Source: a bacterium
Lineage (GTDB): Bacteria > Elusimicrobiota > Elusimicrobia > Elusimicrobiales > UBA9959
Reading direction: 5' to 3'
NCBI GenBank assembly: GCA_021811185.1
Contig: JAJZPL010000013.1
Span: 1-64,000 of the forward strand
DNA: 64,000 nucleotides
The notes under the pieces were generated by a model. It worked only from the letters and a program-made list of their open reading frames with translations. It did no database searches and was not told where the DNA came from. Positions 5,818 to 12,682 of this stretch are shown in pieces (the first letter of the stretch is position 1; every line of letters starts with the position of its first letter). The position numbers were made by a program, and so were the translations under genes.

Positions 5818-6735
5818 TTATTCGTTTACCCAGTCTTTGCGCACGCGGCCGGTAACGGCGGCCAGGGCTTCGCCCGACTCCACGCTGGCCATGCGGATAT
5901 TAAGCTCGAGGACTTTGCCGGGGAGTTCCACCATCCCGCCCACCACAAGCAGGTCCGCGCCCAGCATTCCGCCCACTTTCTTGGCCGACTCCCGGTCAAT
6001 AGCGCCGCTGTTCTGGAGCTTGAGTTCGCCAAGGACTTTTTCGATTTTATCCCGCTCTACTACCCGCATAGCCTTGCGGTTTATCAGCTCGGTGGTAAAG
6101 CGTTCCGAAATAACGTGCCCGTCCCGGGACAGGCGGCCGTCGGAGTAAGAGAACCCGGCCACGGCTATGGTCTTGCCCCCGCCCGCGTAGCCTTTCAGCA
6201 GCGCGCCCACTATGGGGCCGTATTCCCCGGAGTTCTTGGCGGCGCCCGAAGCGAGCCCCAGCCTGGAGGCGACAGCGCTGCGTATCAGCTCGGCGGCCAC
6301 CGTATGGCCCATGCCTTCGGCCAGGGAAAGCGGCGAAGTCTCGCCCAGGCCGCTGTCCTTGAGGCAGCGCCCGGGGCCGGGGTCCGGGTCGGCGCCCCGC
6401 TCGAGCAGCAACTGCACCACGGCGTTGGCCCCGGCGCAGGCCGCGTAATGCAGCGGCGTGCCGTACATTTTGGGGGGCAGCCCGGTGTACGCCATGTGAT
6501 TCACATCGGCTCCCCGGTCTATCAGCAGCCTGGCCACGTCCAGCCTGTTATTGAGGGCGGCCATGTGCAGGGCCGTCTCGTGCACGTAACCGGCCTTGTT
6601 GGCGTTGGGGTCCGCCCCGGCGTCCAGCAGGGCGCGCACCGCGGCGATATCCCCCCGCTCGGCGGGGCGGTACAGCGGAGGCGTGGCGCAGCCGGCAAAA
6701 AAAGAGAAAAACACGAGTCCGTAAATTTTTTTCAT
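5818..6735 (-). CDS. Lipoprotein with ankyrin repeats and a FlgO/CsgG-like domain
   Basis: The 305-residue product starts with a lipoprotein signal (MKKIYGLVFFSFFAGC; lipid-modified Cys16). Residues 20-150 contain about three ankyrin repeats (RGDIAAVRALLDAGADPNA, ETALHMAALNNRLDVARLLI, GTPLHYAACAGANAVVQLLL). Residues of about 185-300 resemble the FlgO/CsgG-type fold: KTIAVAGFSYSDGRLS, RFTTELINR, VVERDKIEKVLGEL and a conserved GADLLVVGGMVEL strand. FlgO- and CsgG-type proteins act at the outer membrane, so an envelope role is inferred. ATG 6735 is chosen because GAGGA precedes it and it creates the signal peptide. The domain combination is unusual. Confidence 0.75.
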   Translation of the reverse strand: MKKIYGLVFFSFFAGCATPPLYRPAERGDIAAVRALLDAGADPNANKAGYVHETALHMAALNNRLDVARLLIDRGADVNHMAYTGLPPKMYGTPLHYAACAGANAVVQLLLERGADPDPGPGRCLKDSGLGETSPLSLAEGMGHTVAAELIRSAVASRLGLASGAAKNSGEYGPIVGALLKGYAGGGKTIAVAGFSYSDGRLSRDGHVISERFTTELINRKAMRVVERDKIEKVLGELKLQNSGAIDRESAKKVGGMLGADLLVVGGMVELPGKVLELNIRMASVESGEALAAVTGRVRKDWVNE

Positions 6736-6823
6736 TATGTCCTCAGGCGGCGCCGAAGCCGTTATTGTCCACCGGAGCTCATTGCCTGCCCCCCTGTAAA
6801 CCTTCGCTTCAACTATACCAAAC

Positions 6824-6856
6824 AAAAAGGCCCCGCCGAAATCGCGGGGCTTTTTT
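6824..6856. terminator. Bidirectional hairpin terminator
   Basis: AAAAAGGCCCCGC pairs with GCGGGGCTTTTTT around a short loop. Read leftward it follows the frameshifted gene that ends at 6899. Confidence 0.82.
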
Positions 6857-6898
6857 GATCCGAAGCTAAACCGCTGCACGGACGGGAACTATCGCGGC

Positions 6899-7707: not shown

Positions 7708-8163
7708 TCACTTCTTTTCCACCAGGTCCATTCCGCACTTGGGGCACTTGCCTGGCTTATCGCCCTGATAGTCGCCCATCGGGCACATATAGATCTTCGC
7801 GTGCGCCGCGGCCGGCTTTTTTTTGCCGACGTACTTTTCCGGGTTCTCGAGGAAAGGCTTATCGCAGGAAGGGCAGCAGAAATAATAGATCTTGCCCTTG
7901 TAAGAGGCCGAGCCCGTCTCCGGCGTAACCTTGAACTTCTCCCCCGTTACGGGACACACCGCGGCCCTGCCCACTTCCGCTTTGGTTACTTTCCGGGCCG
8001 CGGCTTTCGCCGTTTTTACGGCGGCGCCGGCTTCGGCCCGCTTAACCGTAGAGGTGCTCGCGGCGGCGGGTTTATTCCCCTCGCCGGCGGTTTCCCCGGC
8101 GAAGGCCGCGGAGCCCGCGGCCAGCAGGGCAAGCGCGAATAATACCGTCTTTTTAGTTGTCAT
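7708..8163 (-). CDS. Exported YHS plus heavy-metal-binding domain protein
   Basis: The 151-residue product has a signal peptide (MTTKKTVLFALALLAAGSAAFA) and an Ala/Lys-rich linker. A YHS-type domain follows, with CPVTGEKF at about 70 and YYFCCPSCDKPFLENPEKY at about 93-111. The C-terminal heavy-metal-binding motif has YMCPM followed by PGKCPKCGMDL. Such domains bind copper or related metals and occur in P-type ATPases and efflux adaptors. Here they are stand-alone and periplasmic, so a metal scavenging or chaperone role is inferred. GGGAGG precedes the ATG by 5 nt. The DUF302 gene upstream reads the same way, 25 bp away, and both may form an operon. Confidence 0.85.
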   Translation of the reverse strand: MTTKKTVLFALALLAAGSAAFAGETAGEGNKPAAASTSTVKRAEAGAAVKTAKAAARKVTKAEVGRAAVCPVTGEKFKVTPETGSASYKGKIYYFCCPSCDKPFLENPEKYVGKKKPAAAHAKIYMCPMGDYQGDKPGKCPKCGMDLVEKK

Positions 8164-8188: not shown

Positions 8189-8575
8189 TCAAAGAGATTC
8201 GAAGGCGCGCTTCAGCATGGCTTCCACTTCCAGCGCGATCGGCGTGAGCTTGTCGTTCTTTATCAGCCCCATCGCCTGCGTGGGTTTTACCATGGAAACC
8301 ACGGTCTTGCCGTCCTTTTCGTAAACGATAACGTTGCAGGGCAGCATCAGGCCTATGTTCTCCTCGGCGAGAATGGCTTTATGCGCGTTGGCGGGGCTGC
8401 AGGCGCCCAGGATAACGTACTCTTTAAAGTCTATCCCCAGCTTTTCCCTGAATTTTTCTTTAACGTCTATCCTGCTCAGGATGCCGAAGCCTTCTTTTTT
8501 CAACGCTTCCGTGACCGTCTCCACGCCTTTGGCGAAAGGCAGTTCCAGTTCTTTCGAGAAACCGTAATTGATCAT
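8189..8575 (-). CDS. DUF302 domain protein
   Basis: This 128-residue cytoplasmic protein follows the DUF302 pattern: an opening beta strand, VETVTEALKKEGFGILSRID, YVILGACSPANAHKAI, then GLMLPCNVIVYEKDG and a Met/Pro-rich VKPTQAMGL. The biochemical role of the family is unknown; members are often near redox or metal genes, as here. A strong purine ribosome site (GGGGGG) lies 5 nt before the ATG. It is followed by the YHS metal-binding gene in the same direction. Confidence 0.88.
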   Translation of the reverse strand: MINYGFSKELELPFAKGVETVTEALKKEGFGILSRIDVKEKFREKLGIDFKEYVILGACSPANAHKAILAEENIGLMLPCNVIVYEKDGKTVVSMVKPTQAMGLIKNDKLTPIALEVEAMLKRAFESL

Positions 8576-8664: not shown

Positions 8665-10749
8665 TTAATCCGCGCCTGCGGCGTCCGGAAAAGAGGGGAG
8701 GCGTTTTTCCAGCAGCGTGCCTTTGTACGAACGCCGGGCGAGCGAAACAAAATGGAACTGGGACCGCACGGCCGCAGCGTTCGAGGCCGGCCGGGCCCTG
8801 GAATAAGTGCCGTCGGGCTGCAGATACCAGGCCTTGACCGTGTCCGCAAGCCCGCCGCGCAGAACCACGGTCTTGACGTACCGTTTAAGCAGCGGGTCCA
8901 GGATGGGGAACGCTATTTCGAACCGGTTATAGAAGTTCCTCGGCATCCAGTCGGCGCTGGAAAGATAGAGCCTGTCTGCCCCGCCGGAGCGGAAGTAATA
9001 GATCCGGGAATGCTCCAGGAAGCGGTCCACGATGCTGAGCACCGTTATATTCTCGCTCAGTCCCTTTATGCCGGGCTTCAGGCAGCAGATGCCGCGCACC
9101 AGCAGTTCCACTCTTACGCCGGCGCGGGAGGCCTCGTAAAGGGCCTTTATTATATCCGGGTCCACCAGGGAGTTCATCTTGGCCATGATCAGACCGCCGC
9201 CCTCCCTGCGGTGCAGCGCCGTTTCCGCGCGGATCAGCCGCATCACGCCGGCATGAAGATTCACCGGCGCCACCATCAAGGTGCGGGGGCGGGTAAGGCT
9301 CCCCCCGGCGGCGAGGGACCGGAAGTACCGGGCGACCTCGCTGCCGATCTCCGCGTTGGAGGTGAGAAGCCCGAGGTCGGTGTACTGCCTGGCCGTGCCG
9401 GAATGATAATTGCCGGTCCCAAGGTGGGTGTAGGCGGCCGGCCCCTGCGGCAGTTTTTTTATGACCTGCGTCACCTTGCTGTGCACTTTCAGGCCCTTGA
9501 GCGGCGGGATAACTTTTACGCCGGCCGCGCGCAGCTGCCGGGTCCACCGCAGGTTGTTCATTTCGTCGAAACGGGCCTTCAGTTCCAGGTAGACGGAGAC
9601 CTTTTTCCCCCGGGCGGCGGCGTCCTTCAGGGCGTCCATCACCTGGGATTTTATCCCGGCCCGGTAAACCACGTGGGAGATCTCGGTCACCGCGGGGTCG
9701 CAGGCGGCCTCCTTGAGGAAATTCACCACGATGTCGAACGAATCGTACGGGTGATGCAGCAGCACGTCGTGCCTGGCCACGGTGCTCATGATCCGGCCCG
9801 CCTTCCTGAACGGGGCCGGCACGGCGGGAATTATGGCCGGGTATTTAAGGCGCGCGAATCCGTCCAGGCTGTAAACCGCGAACAGCGCCCGGAGGTCCAA
9901 GGGCATGTCGAAACGGTAAAGCGCGGCGGAGTCCAGCCGCAGGGCCGAGGCCAGGAACATGGCGCCTTCCGAATAATACGGGGCGTCCACTTCCAGGCGC
10001 ACCACCCTGGACCGGAGCTTGTTCTGCGCGTTGTCCTCTATGTATTCTTCCAGGGAATCCTCGTCGTCGGGCCGGTAGCGCAGGTCGTGTTCCCGGATCA
10101 TCTTGAACGGAAAGGCCTCTATAACTTCCCGGCCGGCGAACAGTTCGTGGACCTTGGAGCAGATCCAGCGTTCGGCCAGCGCGAAAACGGCCGCGCCCGC
10201 CGGCGCGGCAAGCCGCAGCAGCCGGCGCTCGCGCTCTTCGAGCGTTATGACAGCGTACTCGCCGTGGAACCGCACGAAAATATGCAGCCGGTCGCTCTGG
10301 AGCGCGGGCAGGGGCTCGGCCGTCTTTCTGCGCGTGAATTTTATGGCCTGCAGGCTTTTGCGTATCTCCGCGTCCAGCGCCGGGTCCGGGCCGTCGAAGC
10401 GCGTGTGCACGGTTATGCCCGAGCGCCTGAGCTGGTGCAGGATATCCTCGAGCACCGCGGCCTGGCGGCTTTTCTGGCGCAAAACCTCTTCGCGGATCTG
10501 CACGGAGAGCTGCGCCGCGGTAAGCCCGTCGGGATAACTTTTTTTAGGGGAGTTCCTGGCGGTGCGCGCTATCTCGGCCACCCGGACCATGAAGAATTCG
10601 TTCAGGTTGGAGCTTACGATGGCGGCGAAGCGGAGCCGTTCCAGGGCCGGAACGGTCCTGTCGGCGGCTTCGCTGAGCACCCGGTCGTTAAAGCCGAGCC
10701 AGCTGAGGTCCCTGTTGAAAAGCTGGCAGTGTGGTCGTTTCTCAGGCAT
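8665..10749 (-). CDS. ppk1: Polyphosphate kinase 1
   Basis: Ppk1 makes long-chain polyphosphate from the gamma phosphate of ATP, reversibly, through a phosphohistidine. The 694-residue protein has the N-terminal FNRDLSWLGFNDRVL and SNLNEFFMVRVAEI signatures, the YLELKARFDEMNNL helix, and the active-site region KVHSK with the probable phosphorylated His423. YTHLGTGNYHSGTARQYTDLGLLT follows, then the second phospholipase-D-like half with LVDPDIIKALYEASRAGV and HSRIYYFRSGG. Length is normal for the family. No clear Shine-Dalgarno sequence precedes the ATG. It lies next to a CYTH-type gene and a PPK2 gene, forming a polyphosphate cluster. Confidence 0.97.
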   Translation of the reverse strand: MPEKRPHCQLFNRDLSWLGFNDRVLSEAADRTVPALERLRFAAIVSSNLNEFFMVRVAEIARTARNSPKKSYPDGLTAAQLSVQIREEVLRQKSRQAAVLEDILHQLRRSGITVHTRFDGPDPALDAEIRKSLQAIKFTRRKTAEPLPALQSDRLHIFVRFHGEYAVITLEERERRLLRLAAPAGAAVFALAERWICSKVHELFAGREVIEAFPFKMIREHDLRYRPDDEDSLEEYIEDNAQNKLRSRVVRLEVDAPYYSEGAMFLASALRLDSAALYRFDMPLDLRALFAVYSLDGFARLKYPAIIPAVPAPFRKAGRIMSTVARHDVLLHHPYDSFDIVVNFLKEAACDPAVTEISHVVYRAGIKSQVMDALKDAAARGKKVSVYLELKARFDEMNNLRWTRQLRAAGVKVIPPLKGLKVHSKVTQVIKKLPQGPAAYTHLGTGNYHSGTARQYTDLGLLTSNAEIGSEVARYFRSLAAGGSLTRPRTLMVAPVNLHAGVMRLIRAETALHRREGGGLIMAKMNSLVDPDIIKALYEASRAGVRVELLVRGICCLKPGIKGLSENITVLSIVDRFLEHSRIYYFRSGGADRLYLSSADWMPRNFYNRFEIAFPILDPLLKRYVKTVVLRGGLADTVKAWYLQPDGTYSRARPASNAAAVRSQFHFVSLARRSYKGTLLEKRLPSFPDAAGAD

Positions 10750-10865
10750 ATCGTAGCCGGGCGGAGCGCCGGGGGAAGCCGCGGCCGGTCATAAACATTA
10801 TATGCGGCCGAAGTGAAATCCGGATGAAGGGCGCGTCAATTCCTTGTAAAGAATGCGGCGCGCGG

Positions 10866-11705
10866 TTAAGGCCGGCGCGGGCCGAAGTCCGGCACGTCGT
10901 CCGAAAAAACCTCCGGGCGGGACTGGGGATTTTTCACGAAGCAGCTCAGGATCCTGTGGTACTTGTCCATGGCCTCGGGCTGCAGCTTGAATTTTTTCGA
11001 CAGTTCGGAATCGAACTGCAGCAGTTCGTCCACCTTCGCCATCTTGGAGGCCAGGTCGTTGTCCTTGCTCTTCACCTCGTTCTCGTATTCCCAGAAGTTG
11101 GAGACGGAATGGAAGGAATCCCTGTTGATATGGAAGGCGCTGATATGGTCCAGCGAAGGCTCGAGCGCGCACTTGCCGAGCTGGACCAGGTACTTTTCCT
11201 TGCGGTAGAGGGAGATCACCGGAGCTATCTTGATCCTGGCGATCACCGACGAGCTGAAATGCTTCGAGATCACGTCCCTCATATCCCTGGGGATGAACTT
11301 GGTCAATATATCCCGGAACTTGGACTCGGGAAAGTGAATGATGTCGTGATGGCTTTCCTCTTTTACCAGGCTCTTGATCTTCCCCGAGGAGAATTCGGAA
11401 CGGAAGAGGAGGCCTTTATGGGAAAAGCCGTGGCCCTTGTACTGAAGGTACACGTTGCTGCCGTCGCCCTTGTAGCGGATCCTGAGGCTGGCGCCGGAGT
11501 GAAAGATGTCGAGCTCCGGGGTGTCTATGAACTGGTCCATGAACACCGCGCTTTTGATATGTTTTACGCCCTTCTTGCCGGAAAGATATTTTTTAAGCGA
11601 CTGGGCCGCGTCCGGGGAAAGTTTCTTCTTGGCCTCGATCTCTATCTTGGCGGGGTCGCTGACGCGGAGTTTATGGCAGATAAAGGAAACGACGAAATCG
11701 TTCAT
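10866..11705 (-). CDS. CYTH/triphosphate-tunnel-type protein (VTC-like)
   Basis: The 279-residue protein shows the CYTH signature ExExK as E22, E24 and K26 (KIEIEAKKKL). Alternating charged strands of a tunnel fold follow: FMDQFIDTPELDIF, ASLRIRYKGDGSN, VYLQYKGHG, LLFRSEFSSG, ARIKIAP, SLYRKEKYLVQLG and a late FWEYENEVKSK. Known members hydrolyse inorganic tri- or polyphosphate, make cAMP, or polymerise polyphosphate (yeast Vtc4). Placement between ppk1 and ppk2 points to polyphosphate as substrate, which is inference. ATG 11705 is chosen for its GAGGAGAA ribosome site; a start at 11792 would run into the divergent promoter region. No membrane segment is seen. Confidence 0.82.
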   Translation of the reverse strand: MNDFVVSFICHKLRVSDPAKIEIEAKKKLSPDAAQSLKKYLSGKKGVKHIKSAVFMDQFIDTPELDIFHSGASLRIRYKGDGSNVYLQYKGHGFSHKGLLFRSEFSSGKIKSLVKEESHHDIIHFPESKFRDILTKFIPRDMRDVISKHFSSSVIARIKIAPVISLYRKEKYLVQLGKCALEPSLDHISAFHINRDSFHSVSNFWEYENEVKSKDNDLASKMAKVDELLQFDSELSKKFKLQPEAMDKYHRILSCFVKNPQSRPEVFSDDVPDFGPRRP

Positions 11706-11800
11706 GTTCTTCTCCTCTTGATACGGCCGCGGACGAAAACCTAAAGCTATGATACAATACTTGCGGGGACCGCGGCCCGCAGCCCGCGGCAAAGGAAAAC

Positions 11801-12682
11801 ATGAAACACGACCCGAAGATCCTTCTTAAACCCGGCCGCGCCCTGCGGCTCAAAGATTTCGACCCCGGCTACACAAGCGCTTTCAAGAACAGGAAGGACG
11901 CCAAAGACAAGCTTGCGGCGGACATAGAAAGAATGGCCGCGCTGCAGGACAAGTTTTACGCCGAGAACCGCAGCGCCCTCCTGATCATCTTCCAGGCGAT
12001 GGACGCGGCGGGGAAGGACAGCACGATCAAGCACGTAATGTCGGGGATCAACCCCCAGGGCTGCCAGGTGTTCAGTTTCAAGCAGCCTTCCGCGCTGGAG
12101 CTGAGCCACGATTTTCTGTGGCGGACCACCCAATGCCTGCCCCAGCGCGGCATGATCGGGATCTTCAACCGTTCTTACTACGAGGAGGTTTTGGTTACGC
12201 GGGTGCACCCGGAACTGCTGGTAAAGCAGAACCTGCCCGGCATAAACTCGCCGGGAGACATCCCGAAATATTTCTGGAAAGGCCGGCTCGCGCAGATCAA
12301 CAGCTATGAAAAGATATTAACGGAGAACGGAACGCGCGTGCTGAAATTCTTTCTCCACTTAAGCCGGCAGGAGCAGAAGAAGCGCTTTATAGAACGCATC
12401 GACAACCCCGAAAAGAACTGGAAGATAGCTATGGCGGACGCCCGGGAAAGGGCGTGCTGGCACGACTACCAGAAAGCTTACGAAGAAGCCCTGACCGCTA
12501 CGTCCACCGCGGCCGCGCCCTGGTACATCATTCCCGCGGACAACAAGTGGTTCATGCGCACGGCGGTAGGCGACATCATAGCGAAGACGCTCAAGGAACT
12601 AAAACCCGAGTATCCCGTAACGGCCGGAGCCCAGGCGGCCGAACGCGCCAGGATAAAACGGCTGTTGCTGAACGAACGGTGA
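11801..12682 (+). CDS. Polyphosphate kinase 2 family protein
   Basis: PPK2 enzymes use polyphosphate to phosphorylate nucleotides, mainly to regenerate ADP, ATP or GTP. The 293-residue protein has the P-loop AMDAAGKDST at 66-75, the PSALELSHDFLWR segment at 96-108, and Walker B-type GIFNRSYYEEVLVTRVHP at 120-137. It also has an LHLSRQEQKKRFIERIDNPEKNWK lid and the C-terminal WYIIPADNKWF. It is a single-domain form; whether it favours AMP, ADP or GDP cannot be read with confidence. It diverges from the CYTH gene with 95 bp between them and has an AAAGGA ribosome site. A TACAAT -10-like hexamer lies near 11754. Confidence 0.95.
   Translation: MKHDPKILLKPGRALRLKDFDPGYTSAFKNRKDAKDKLAADIERMAALQDKFYAENRSALLIIFQAMDAAGKDSTIKHVMSGINPQGCQVFSFKQPSALELSHDFLWRTTQCLPQRGMIGIFNRSYYEEVLVTRVHPELLVKQNLPGINSPGDIPKYFWKGRLAQINSYEKILTENGTRVLKFFLHLSRQEQKKRFIERIDNPEKNWKIAMADARERACWHDYQKAYEEALTATSTAAAPWYIIPADNKWFMRTAVGDIIAKTLKELKPEYPVTAGAQAAERARIKRLLLNER

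Follow-up and report, generated by a model that had tools for sequence, protein, structure and literature searches.

Two polyphosphate kinases, PPK1 and an enzyme of the PPK2 family, flank a protein of 279 residues with a CYTH domain in a genome of the phylum Elusimicrobiota (assembly GCA_021811185.1). The present analysis deals with this middle protein, a predicted triphosphate tunnel metalloenzyme (TTM), and with its relation to polyphosphate. The genes are located in the first 64,000 nucleotides of contig JAJZPL010000013.1, a stretch called the window below. The window genome (G000) comprises 3.09 Mb in 79 contigs; the relatives named in the following are Elusimicrobiota metagenome-assembled genomes (MAGs). 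A sequence-only reading of the window had placed the three genes side by side and had noticed an ExExK signature in the middle protein: the open reading frames (ORFs) were confirmed with identical outer coordinates (8665-12682), and the motif is present as E22-I-E24-A-K26. PPK1 scored 660.9 bits against TIGR03705 (cut-off 465.85). PPK2 matched PF03976 with E 5.3e-66 and TIGR03709 with 378.9 bits (cut-off 247.2), and the CYTH protein matched Pfam PF01928 with E 2.8e-9 and 37.5 bits (cut-off 23.2). A scan for sigma-70-like promoters between positions 8400 and 13000 gave no site, and an Rfam scan between 7000 and 14000 gave no match. The features are listed in Table 1.

Table 1. Features of the polyphosphate locus, with positions in the window
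Feature	Position	Strand	Basis
PPK1, polyphosphate kinase 1, 694 aa	8665..10749	-	TIGR03705 and four PP_kinase Pfam domains
Gap between CYTH and PPK1 genes, 116 bp, both genes on the same strand	10750..10865	-	no minus-strand terminator-like site listed
Unfused CYTH/TTM protein of 279 aa, starting with ATG; residue signature of an acidic-patch hydrolase	10866..11705	-	PF01928, ygiF-group profile match, conserved catalytic residues
Intergenic stretch of 95 bp separating the divergent genes of CYTH and PPK2	11706..11800	.	ORF coordinates
PPK2-family polyphosphate kinase, 293 aa; occasional neighbor, no conserved part	11801..12682	+	PF03976, TIGR03709

Family and predicted active site of the putative tunnel protein

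Proteins of the window type were found in 53 of 340 Elusimicrobiota genomes, including f21, which lies outside the class; the number results from 54 matches in the phylum minus G287, a weak match with stop codons. In the set of 199 relatives, 27 genomes possess a member, the window's own counted. A 27-member alignment contains 44 invariant columns, identities to the window protein range from 38 to 70%, and all 27 members matched Pfam CYTH at E up to 1. In profile comparisons with hhalign, the family was aligned to a group containing E. coli ygiF (ygiF, three f2 proteins and one f14 protein, L145) with a probability of 88% and E 3e-6 over 194 columns, which cover both domain halves. The score was 47.0, whereas 30 column shuffles reached at most 22.0. 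For two other groups, named by us cyaB-like (short proteins) and NeuTTM-like, the probabilities were 0.6 and 0.5%. Because the profile alignments are small, these values make a good but not final case for full-length homology of the family to TTMs. A PDB sequence search with the single window protein gave no match; with the family profile, three weak matches were obtained, the best of which (E 0.14) was 3sy3, 'GBAA_1210 protein', which we take to be a CYTH protein. At the limits used, no homologues were found in plasmids and viral contigs. A pattern scan of genome contigs identified 8 loci, five of them titled Elusimicrobia or Elusimicrobiales and three only 'bacterium'; as the patterns miss distant members, this is no proof that the family is restricted to Elusimicrobiota.

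The hhalign map relates E22, E24, K26, R75, R77, and K90 of the window protein to E4, E6, K8, R56, R58, and K69 of ygiF, and E104, K169, D186, E208, E210, and K248 to E83, R126, D143, E160, E162, and K191. Conservation was counted on 53 sequences; the fragments of G004 (L065) and G213 (L104) were left out. E22, E24, K26, R75, R77, K90, K169, D186, E208, and K248 are invariant in 53/53, as is a C-terminal DKYxR motif. E104 and E210 occur in 52/53 each, with Gln in G150 and in the second copy of G216 (L107a), respectively. In ygiF, E160 binds metal 1, E4, E6, and E162 bind metal 2, and R56 and K69 contribute to catalysis and binding (PMC4641920). The window protein possesses the residue set of an acidic-patch TTM hydrolase, i.e. 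the metal-1 and metal-2 glutamates and the catalytic Arg and Lys. Since the catalytic residues of ygiF are aligned and conserved, the family fits a two-metal hydrolase and not a Vtc4-like polymerase, a class IV cyclase or a thiamine triphosphatase (ThTPase), and a hydrolase is the best prediction for the window protein. Modeled on ygiF and AtTTM3, E208 would hold metal 1 while the triphosphate end sits in the tunnel; E22, E24, and E210 would hold metal 2, which would activate a water molecule to cut the terminal phosphate. R75 may assist cleavage, and R77 and K90 are expected to bind phosphate.

The making of polyphosphate in the manner of Vtc4 had been named as a further option by the sequence-only reading. 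Vtc4 belongs to the same superfamily of TTMs, and the invariant basic residues and the DKYxR motif would suit such a polymerase or a chain-length sensor beside PPK1. However, Vtc4 has metal site 1 but lacks site 2, and basic residues replace its acidic patch (PMC4641920); in the window protein, the patch is intact, and the glutamates concerned are those counted above (E22, E24, and E208 in 53/53; E104 and E210 in 52/53). Moreover, no match to the VTC Pfam family (PF09359) was listed for the 27 CYTH members, and the alignment of the family to four Elusimicrobiota VTC proteins by hhalign had a probability of 0.2%. Due to the intact patch, the missing VTC match, and this low value, a Vtc4-like function is disfavored and appears very improbable.

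A similar judgment applies to a class IV adenylyl cyclase or a ThTPase that stands beside ppk for historical reasons. The generic CYTH annotation and a weak match to NCBIfam cyaB (14.3 bits, far under the cut-off of 57.95) point in this direction, and in Acidithiobacillus, a CYTH-CHAD protein encoded near ppk has been interpreted as a cyclase (PMC6416229). The motif rules given in PMC8233210 demand for class IV cyclases HFxxxxExExK, a small residue at the first Arg of RxR, and Ala as second residue of ExE, and for ThTPases W/YxRxR. In contrast, the HF preceding ExExK is absent from the family (position 17 is D, N or E in 53/53), R75 is kept in 53/53, position 210 is Glu in 52 sequences and Gln in 1, and S73 occupies in 53/53 the position of the ThTPase W/Y. 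We consider either activity highly unlikely.

Some members deviate from the common pattern. A second, diverged copy exists in two genomes: in G183:C7 (L064:6828-7628) it lies away from PPK1, and in G216 (L107:7259-7987) it is close to the first copy. In the G216 copy, Gln replaces glutamate 210 of metal site 2, so that its activity may be lost or its function altered. The CYTH protein of G150 (L057:808-1578) carries E104Q, has lost a near-invariant EESHHD stretch and sits on a long branch.

Linkage to PPK1 across the phylum

PPK1 was counted in 66 of 340 genomes (72 matches minus six of 17-26 bits, which were taken as PLD-like: G029, G041, G174, G187, G239, and G328). It is present in 51 of the 53 genomes with the CYTH family and in 15 of the 287 others (Fisher 2e-44, kinship ignored). 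In the two family genomes without a detected PPK1 (G004:C380, L065; G213:C31, L104), only fragments of the CYTH gene were found, as if both genes had been lost together, and an intact member occurs in 0 of 274 PPK1-less genomes. As CYTH is likewise matched in two pieces in G222, which has PPK1, and as the genomes are MAGs, assembly faults are possible for these fragments. For comparison, of 93 relatives with only other CYTH paralogues, 2 have PPK1 (G007, G198).

The neighborhood survey covered 54 CYTH loci from 53 genomes; several of them are cut by contig ends and all counts of neighbors are for this reason lower bounds. PPK1 is in view at 41 loci, at 27 within 200 bp and at 35 within 1.3 kb; the orientation is convergent in 32 cases, same-strand in 8, and divergent in 1. 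Pairs within 200 bp span nine families and 14 genera, and the same-strand order is confined to a single clade of f1, the family of the window. The occurrence of CYTH in 53/340 genomes, of PPK1 in 51 of those, and the short distance at 27/54 loci indicate that the association is more than chance. The survey had been proposed in the sequence-only reading for PPK1-CYTH-PPK2 sets, with uniqueness to this genome as the adverse outcome. The arrangement is not unique, as the close pair recurs in nine families; PPK2, however, was seen at only 3 of the 54 loci, namely in the window, in G026 with an extra gene between, and in G165 on the far side of PPK1. This small number, although a lower bound, led us to reject the suggested three-enzyme system as a conserved design: the conserved pair is PPK1 and CYTH, not the trio.

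The two genes might be adjacent only because their order was inherited, without working together. The tree, from which L112 (G222, CYTH matched in two pieces) was left out, groups the sequences mostly by family and requires few rearrangements, as expected in this case. On the other hand, the pair is kept in three orientations, it is still found where protein identity has fallen to 38-50% and, beyond the class, in f21, and the PPK1-less genomes hold CYTH fragments only; mere inheritance is thus an explanation to which we give next to no weight.

Further phosphate genes are in view at many of the 54 loci: a PhoR-like kinase at 26, a PhoB-like regulator at 22, PiT at 21, SixA at 19, and DUF47 at 18; rarer are PstS (6), alkaline phosphatase (3), and CHAD (2). 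The families of most neighbor query proteins were checked; the PhoR- and PhoB-like matches rest on resemblance to a single two-component pair, so that other regulators may be among them. A gene for a SixA-type histidine phosphatase points away from CYTH at a distance of 21-75 bp in 16/54 loci (L055:7544-8038 and other f10/f15 loci), and SixA seems to belong to the polyphosphate set as well.

E. coli ygiF is an inorganic triphosphatase consisting of CYTH and CHAD. Equivalents of its ExExK, RxR, K69, ExE, and D143 are all present in the window protein and two-metal hydrolysis is predicted; unlike ygiF, which sits beside glnE, the window protein is encoded beside ppk1 and shows no CHAD match. No CHAD domain was detected elsewhere in G000, and among the 66 PPK1 genomes, in which CHAD was scanned, 31 have one; the idea of a split ygiF, with CYTH and a separate CHAD partner, was rejected as a general solution on these grounds. 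In Acidithiobacillus, a CYTH-CHAD gene is found in a folD-ppk-parA context and the CYTH protein was suggested in one paper as an ancient partner of PPK in polyphosphate metabolism (PMC10892726, PMC6416229). There, the CHAD fusion has been interpreted as a cyclase or a phosin, whereas the protein considered here is unfused, negative for the cyclase motifs, and set against the distribution of PPX across a phylum. Stand-alone CHAD proteins in polyphosphate operons are cited in PMC6537752.

Scarcity of PPX and other neighbors of PPK1

The exopolyphosphatase family Ppx/GppA was scanned in the 199 relatives and in 34 further genomes with PPK1 or CYTH. It was found in 4/199 and 5/34, respectively, while the same search was positive in 10 of 14 control genomes. 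Among the PPK1 genomes, 8/66 have PPX, which in seven of the eight lies within 200 bp of PPK1, the place CYTH takes elsewhere. A CYTH gene within 200 bp of PPK1 occurs in 0/8 genomes with PPX and in 27/58 without (p 0.017); counted by genus, the values are 0/5 and 14/22 (p 0.016). G154, G324, and G332 have PPX and lack the CYTH family. As PPX belongs to a different Pfam family (PF02541), it is possibly a functional analogue of CYTH, not a homologue; PF02541 did not match the window protein, for which CYTH and one sub-threshold match were the only ones at E up to 1.

Other phosphatases occur in this place in CYTH-less genomes. In G156, G175, G197, G206, and G229, a calcineurin-like metallophosphatase follows PPK1 within 200 bp; the protein has about 215 aa, its gene lies less than 50 bp from the 3' end of PPK1 (L148:3912-4559 in G156, also L150, L151, L157, and L162), and it is a candidate for a second kind of polyphosphatase. 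A relative is located about 1.3 kb 5' of PPK1 in the CYTH-bearing G191, G215, G219, and G221. SixA follows PPK1 within 200 bp in G007 (where the 5' side of PPK1 is at a contig end), G171, G198, G209, and G224, and is accompanied by CHAD in G007, G198, G209, and G224. When CYTH, PPX, metallophosphatase, and SixA are considered together, one of them lies within 200 bp of PPK1 in 44 of the 66 PPK1 genomes and none in 22; no genome has two of them there. This four-way pattern points to a PPK1 partner that can be exchanged, although the independent events are few.

It is conceivable that the stand-alone TTM is the dedicated polyphosphatase of most polyphosphate-making Elusimicrobiota and replaces PPX, an exchangeable catabolic slot of PPK1 being taken by TTM, PPX, calcineurin-like metallophosphatase or SixA-type phosphatase. 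The exclusion depends on the chosen distance, which slightly lowered our confidence in this proposal; we regard it as tentative and somewhat more likely to fail than to hold.

Proposed assignment to polyphosphate breakdown

The assignment draws on family membership, intact catalytic residues, linkage to and co-occurrence with PPK1, phosphate genes near many relatives, and the scarcity of Ppx/GppA. On this basis we propose, with a probability of roughly 65%, that the window protein is an unfused TTM of the acidic-patch type, which acts as a two-metal hydrolase of inorganic poly- or tripolyphosphate and is the catabolic partner of PPK1 in a phosphate-homeostasis set of Elusimicrobiota. The sequence-only reading had tied the tunnel enzyme to polyphosphate and had counted trimming among the tasks of the system; this part is supported, and trimming is the probable role of the enzyme. 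The enzyme would act on polyphosphate made by PPK1, either on the long chain or on leftover short chains and tripolyphosphate (PPPi). Where PPX is missing, the TTM possibly serves PPK1 in its place, and the CYTH family is a promising candidate for trimming the polymer in genomes mostly without the usual polyphosphate-degrading enzyme. PPK2, where present, would separately return polyphosphate to nucleotides. A precedent is CthTTM of Clostridium thermocellum, a bacterial TTM with reported polyphosphatase activity, which was named as a possible exopolyphosphatase (PMC3440374); in contrast to the present case, no ppk linkage is mentioned in the part of that paper used here.

Several observations weigh against this assignment. 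PF01928 spans only residues 21-108 of the window protein, i.e. the N-terminal half alone is recognized, and an AlphaFold2 model computed from 8 close sequences had a mean pLDDT of only 37.8. No Pho genes were recognized around the locus of the window; of the phosphate-set genes, only PPK1 and PPK2 were found in the 20 kb compared. The CYTH family is absent from 15/66 PPK1 genomes. The same-strand order and the order with PiT and no PPK1 each correspond to one clade; as the tree contains few neighborhood events, the p values overstate independence. Five PPX genomes keep CYTH, in G164, G190, G232, and G233 (one clade) beside PiT and in G231 at 6.4 kb from PPK1; the coexistence indicates that one enzyme is no plain substitute for, or duplicate of, the other. 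In addition, 14 of the 22 PPK1 genomes with none of the four neighbors within 200 bp have CYTH 0.5-8.1 kb away, and the remaining 8 include contig-end cases and G231 (SixA at 240 bp). Finally, the four-way exclusion fails at wider distance: in G208, CYTH lies at 129 bp and SixA at 342 bp, and in G200 and G215 both are less than 1 kb from PPK1; in G191, G215, G219, and G221, CYTH occurs together with the metallophosphatase relative at about 1.3 kb.

The main rival is a narrow tripolyphosphatase, which would clear only the PPPi by-product of polyphosphate use and would exert no control on polyphosphate length. Both ygiF and AtTTM3, which have been studied in detail, use PPPi and short chains as substrates (PMC4641920), and this also counts against a polyphosphatase; the closest profile match of the family is the ygiF-containing group, and the presence of PPX and CYTH in the same five genomes fits a separate task for CYTH. 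Such a function alone, however, does not explain why PPX is scarce among PPK1 genomes. This gap could be filled by PPK2, the metallophosphatase, SixA or a reverse reaction of PPK1, and we judge the narrow function unlikely, yet worth serious consideration.

A literature search of titles and abstract openings, whose incomplete coverage makes it weak evidence, gave no paper on a PPK1-linked CYTH family or on CYTH as a substitute for PPX. As CYTH-CHAD near ppk has been published for Acidithiobacillus, the general idea is known; the new part is an unfused, PPK1-linked CYTH family in genomes mostly without PPX. The enzymes are ordinary and the arrangement is informative. How PPK1-bearing cells without PPX degrade polyphosphate is a question raised for haloarchaea (PMC13318637); which substrate bacterial TTMs use in the cell is likewise unsettled, and PPPi has hardly been demonstrated in living cells (PMC3440374). 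A TTM that is tied to PPK1 across a phylum and often linked to phosphate genes offers a natural system for assaying both polyphosphate breakdown and the TTM substrate, and its assignment to polyphosphate would correct annotations in the style of 'adenylate cyclase'.

Two observations concern the surroundings of the locus. On the minus strand of the window, an ORF at 5818-6879 encodes ankyrin-like repeats followed by a stretch which, judged by eye and not by family search, resembles a CsgG/FlgO-type lipoprotein domain. Downstream of PPK1 and on the same strand, a DUF302 protein (8189-8575) and a protein with a YHS/heavy-metal-binding domain (7708-8163) are encoded, which hints at metal handling beside polyphosphate.

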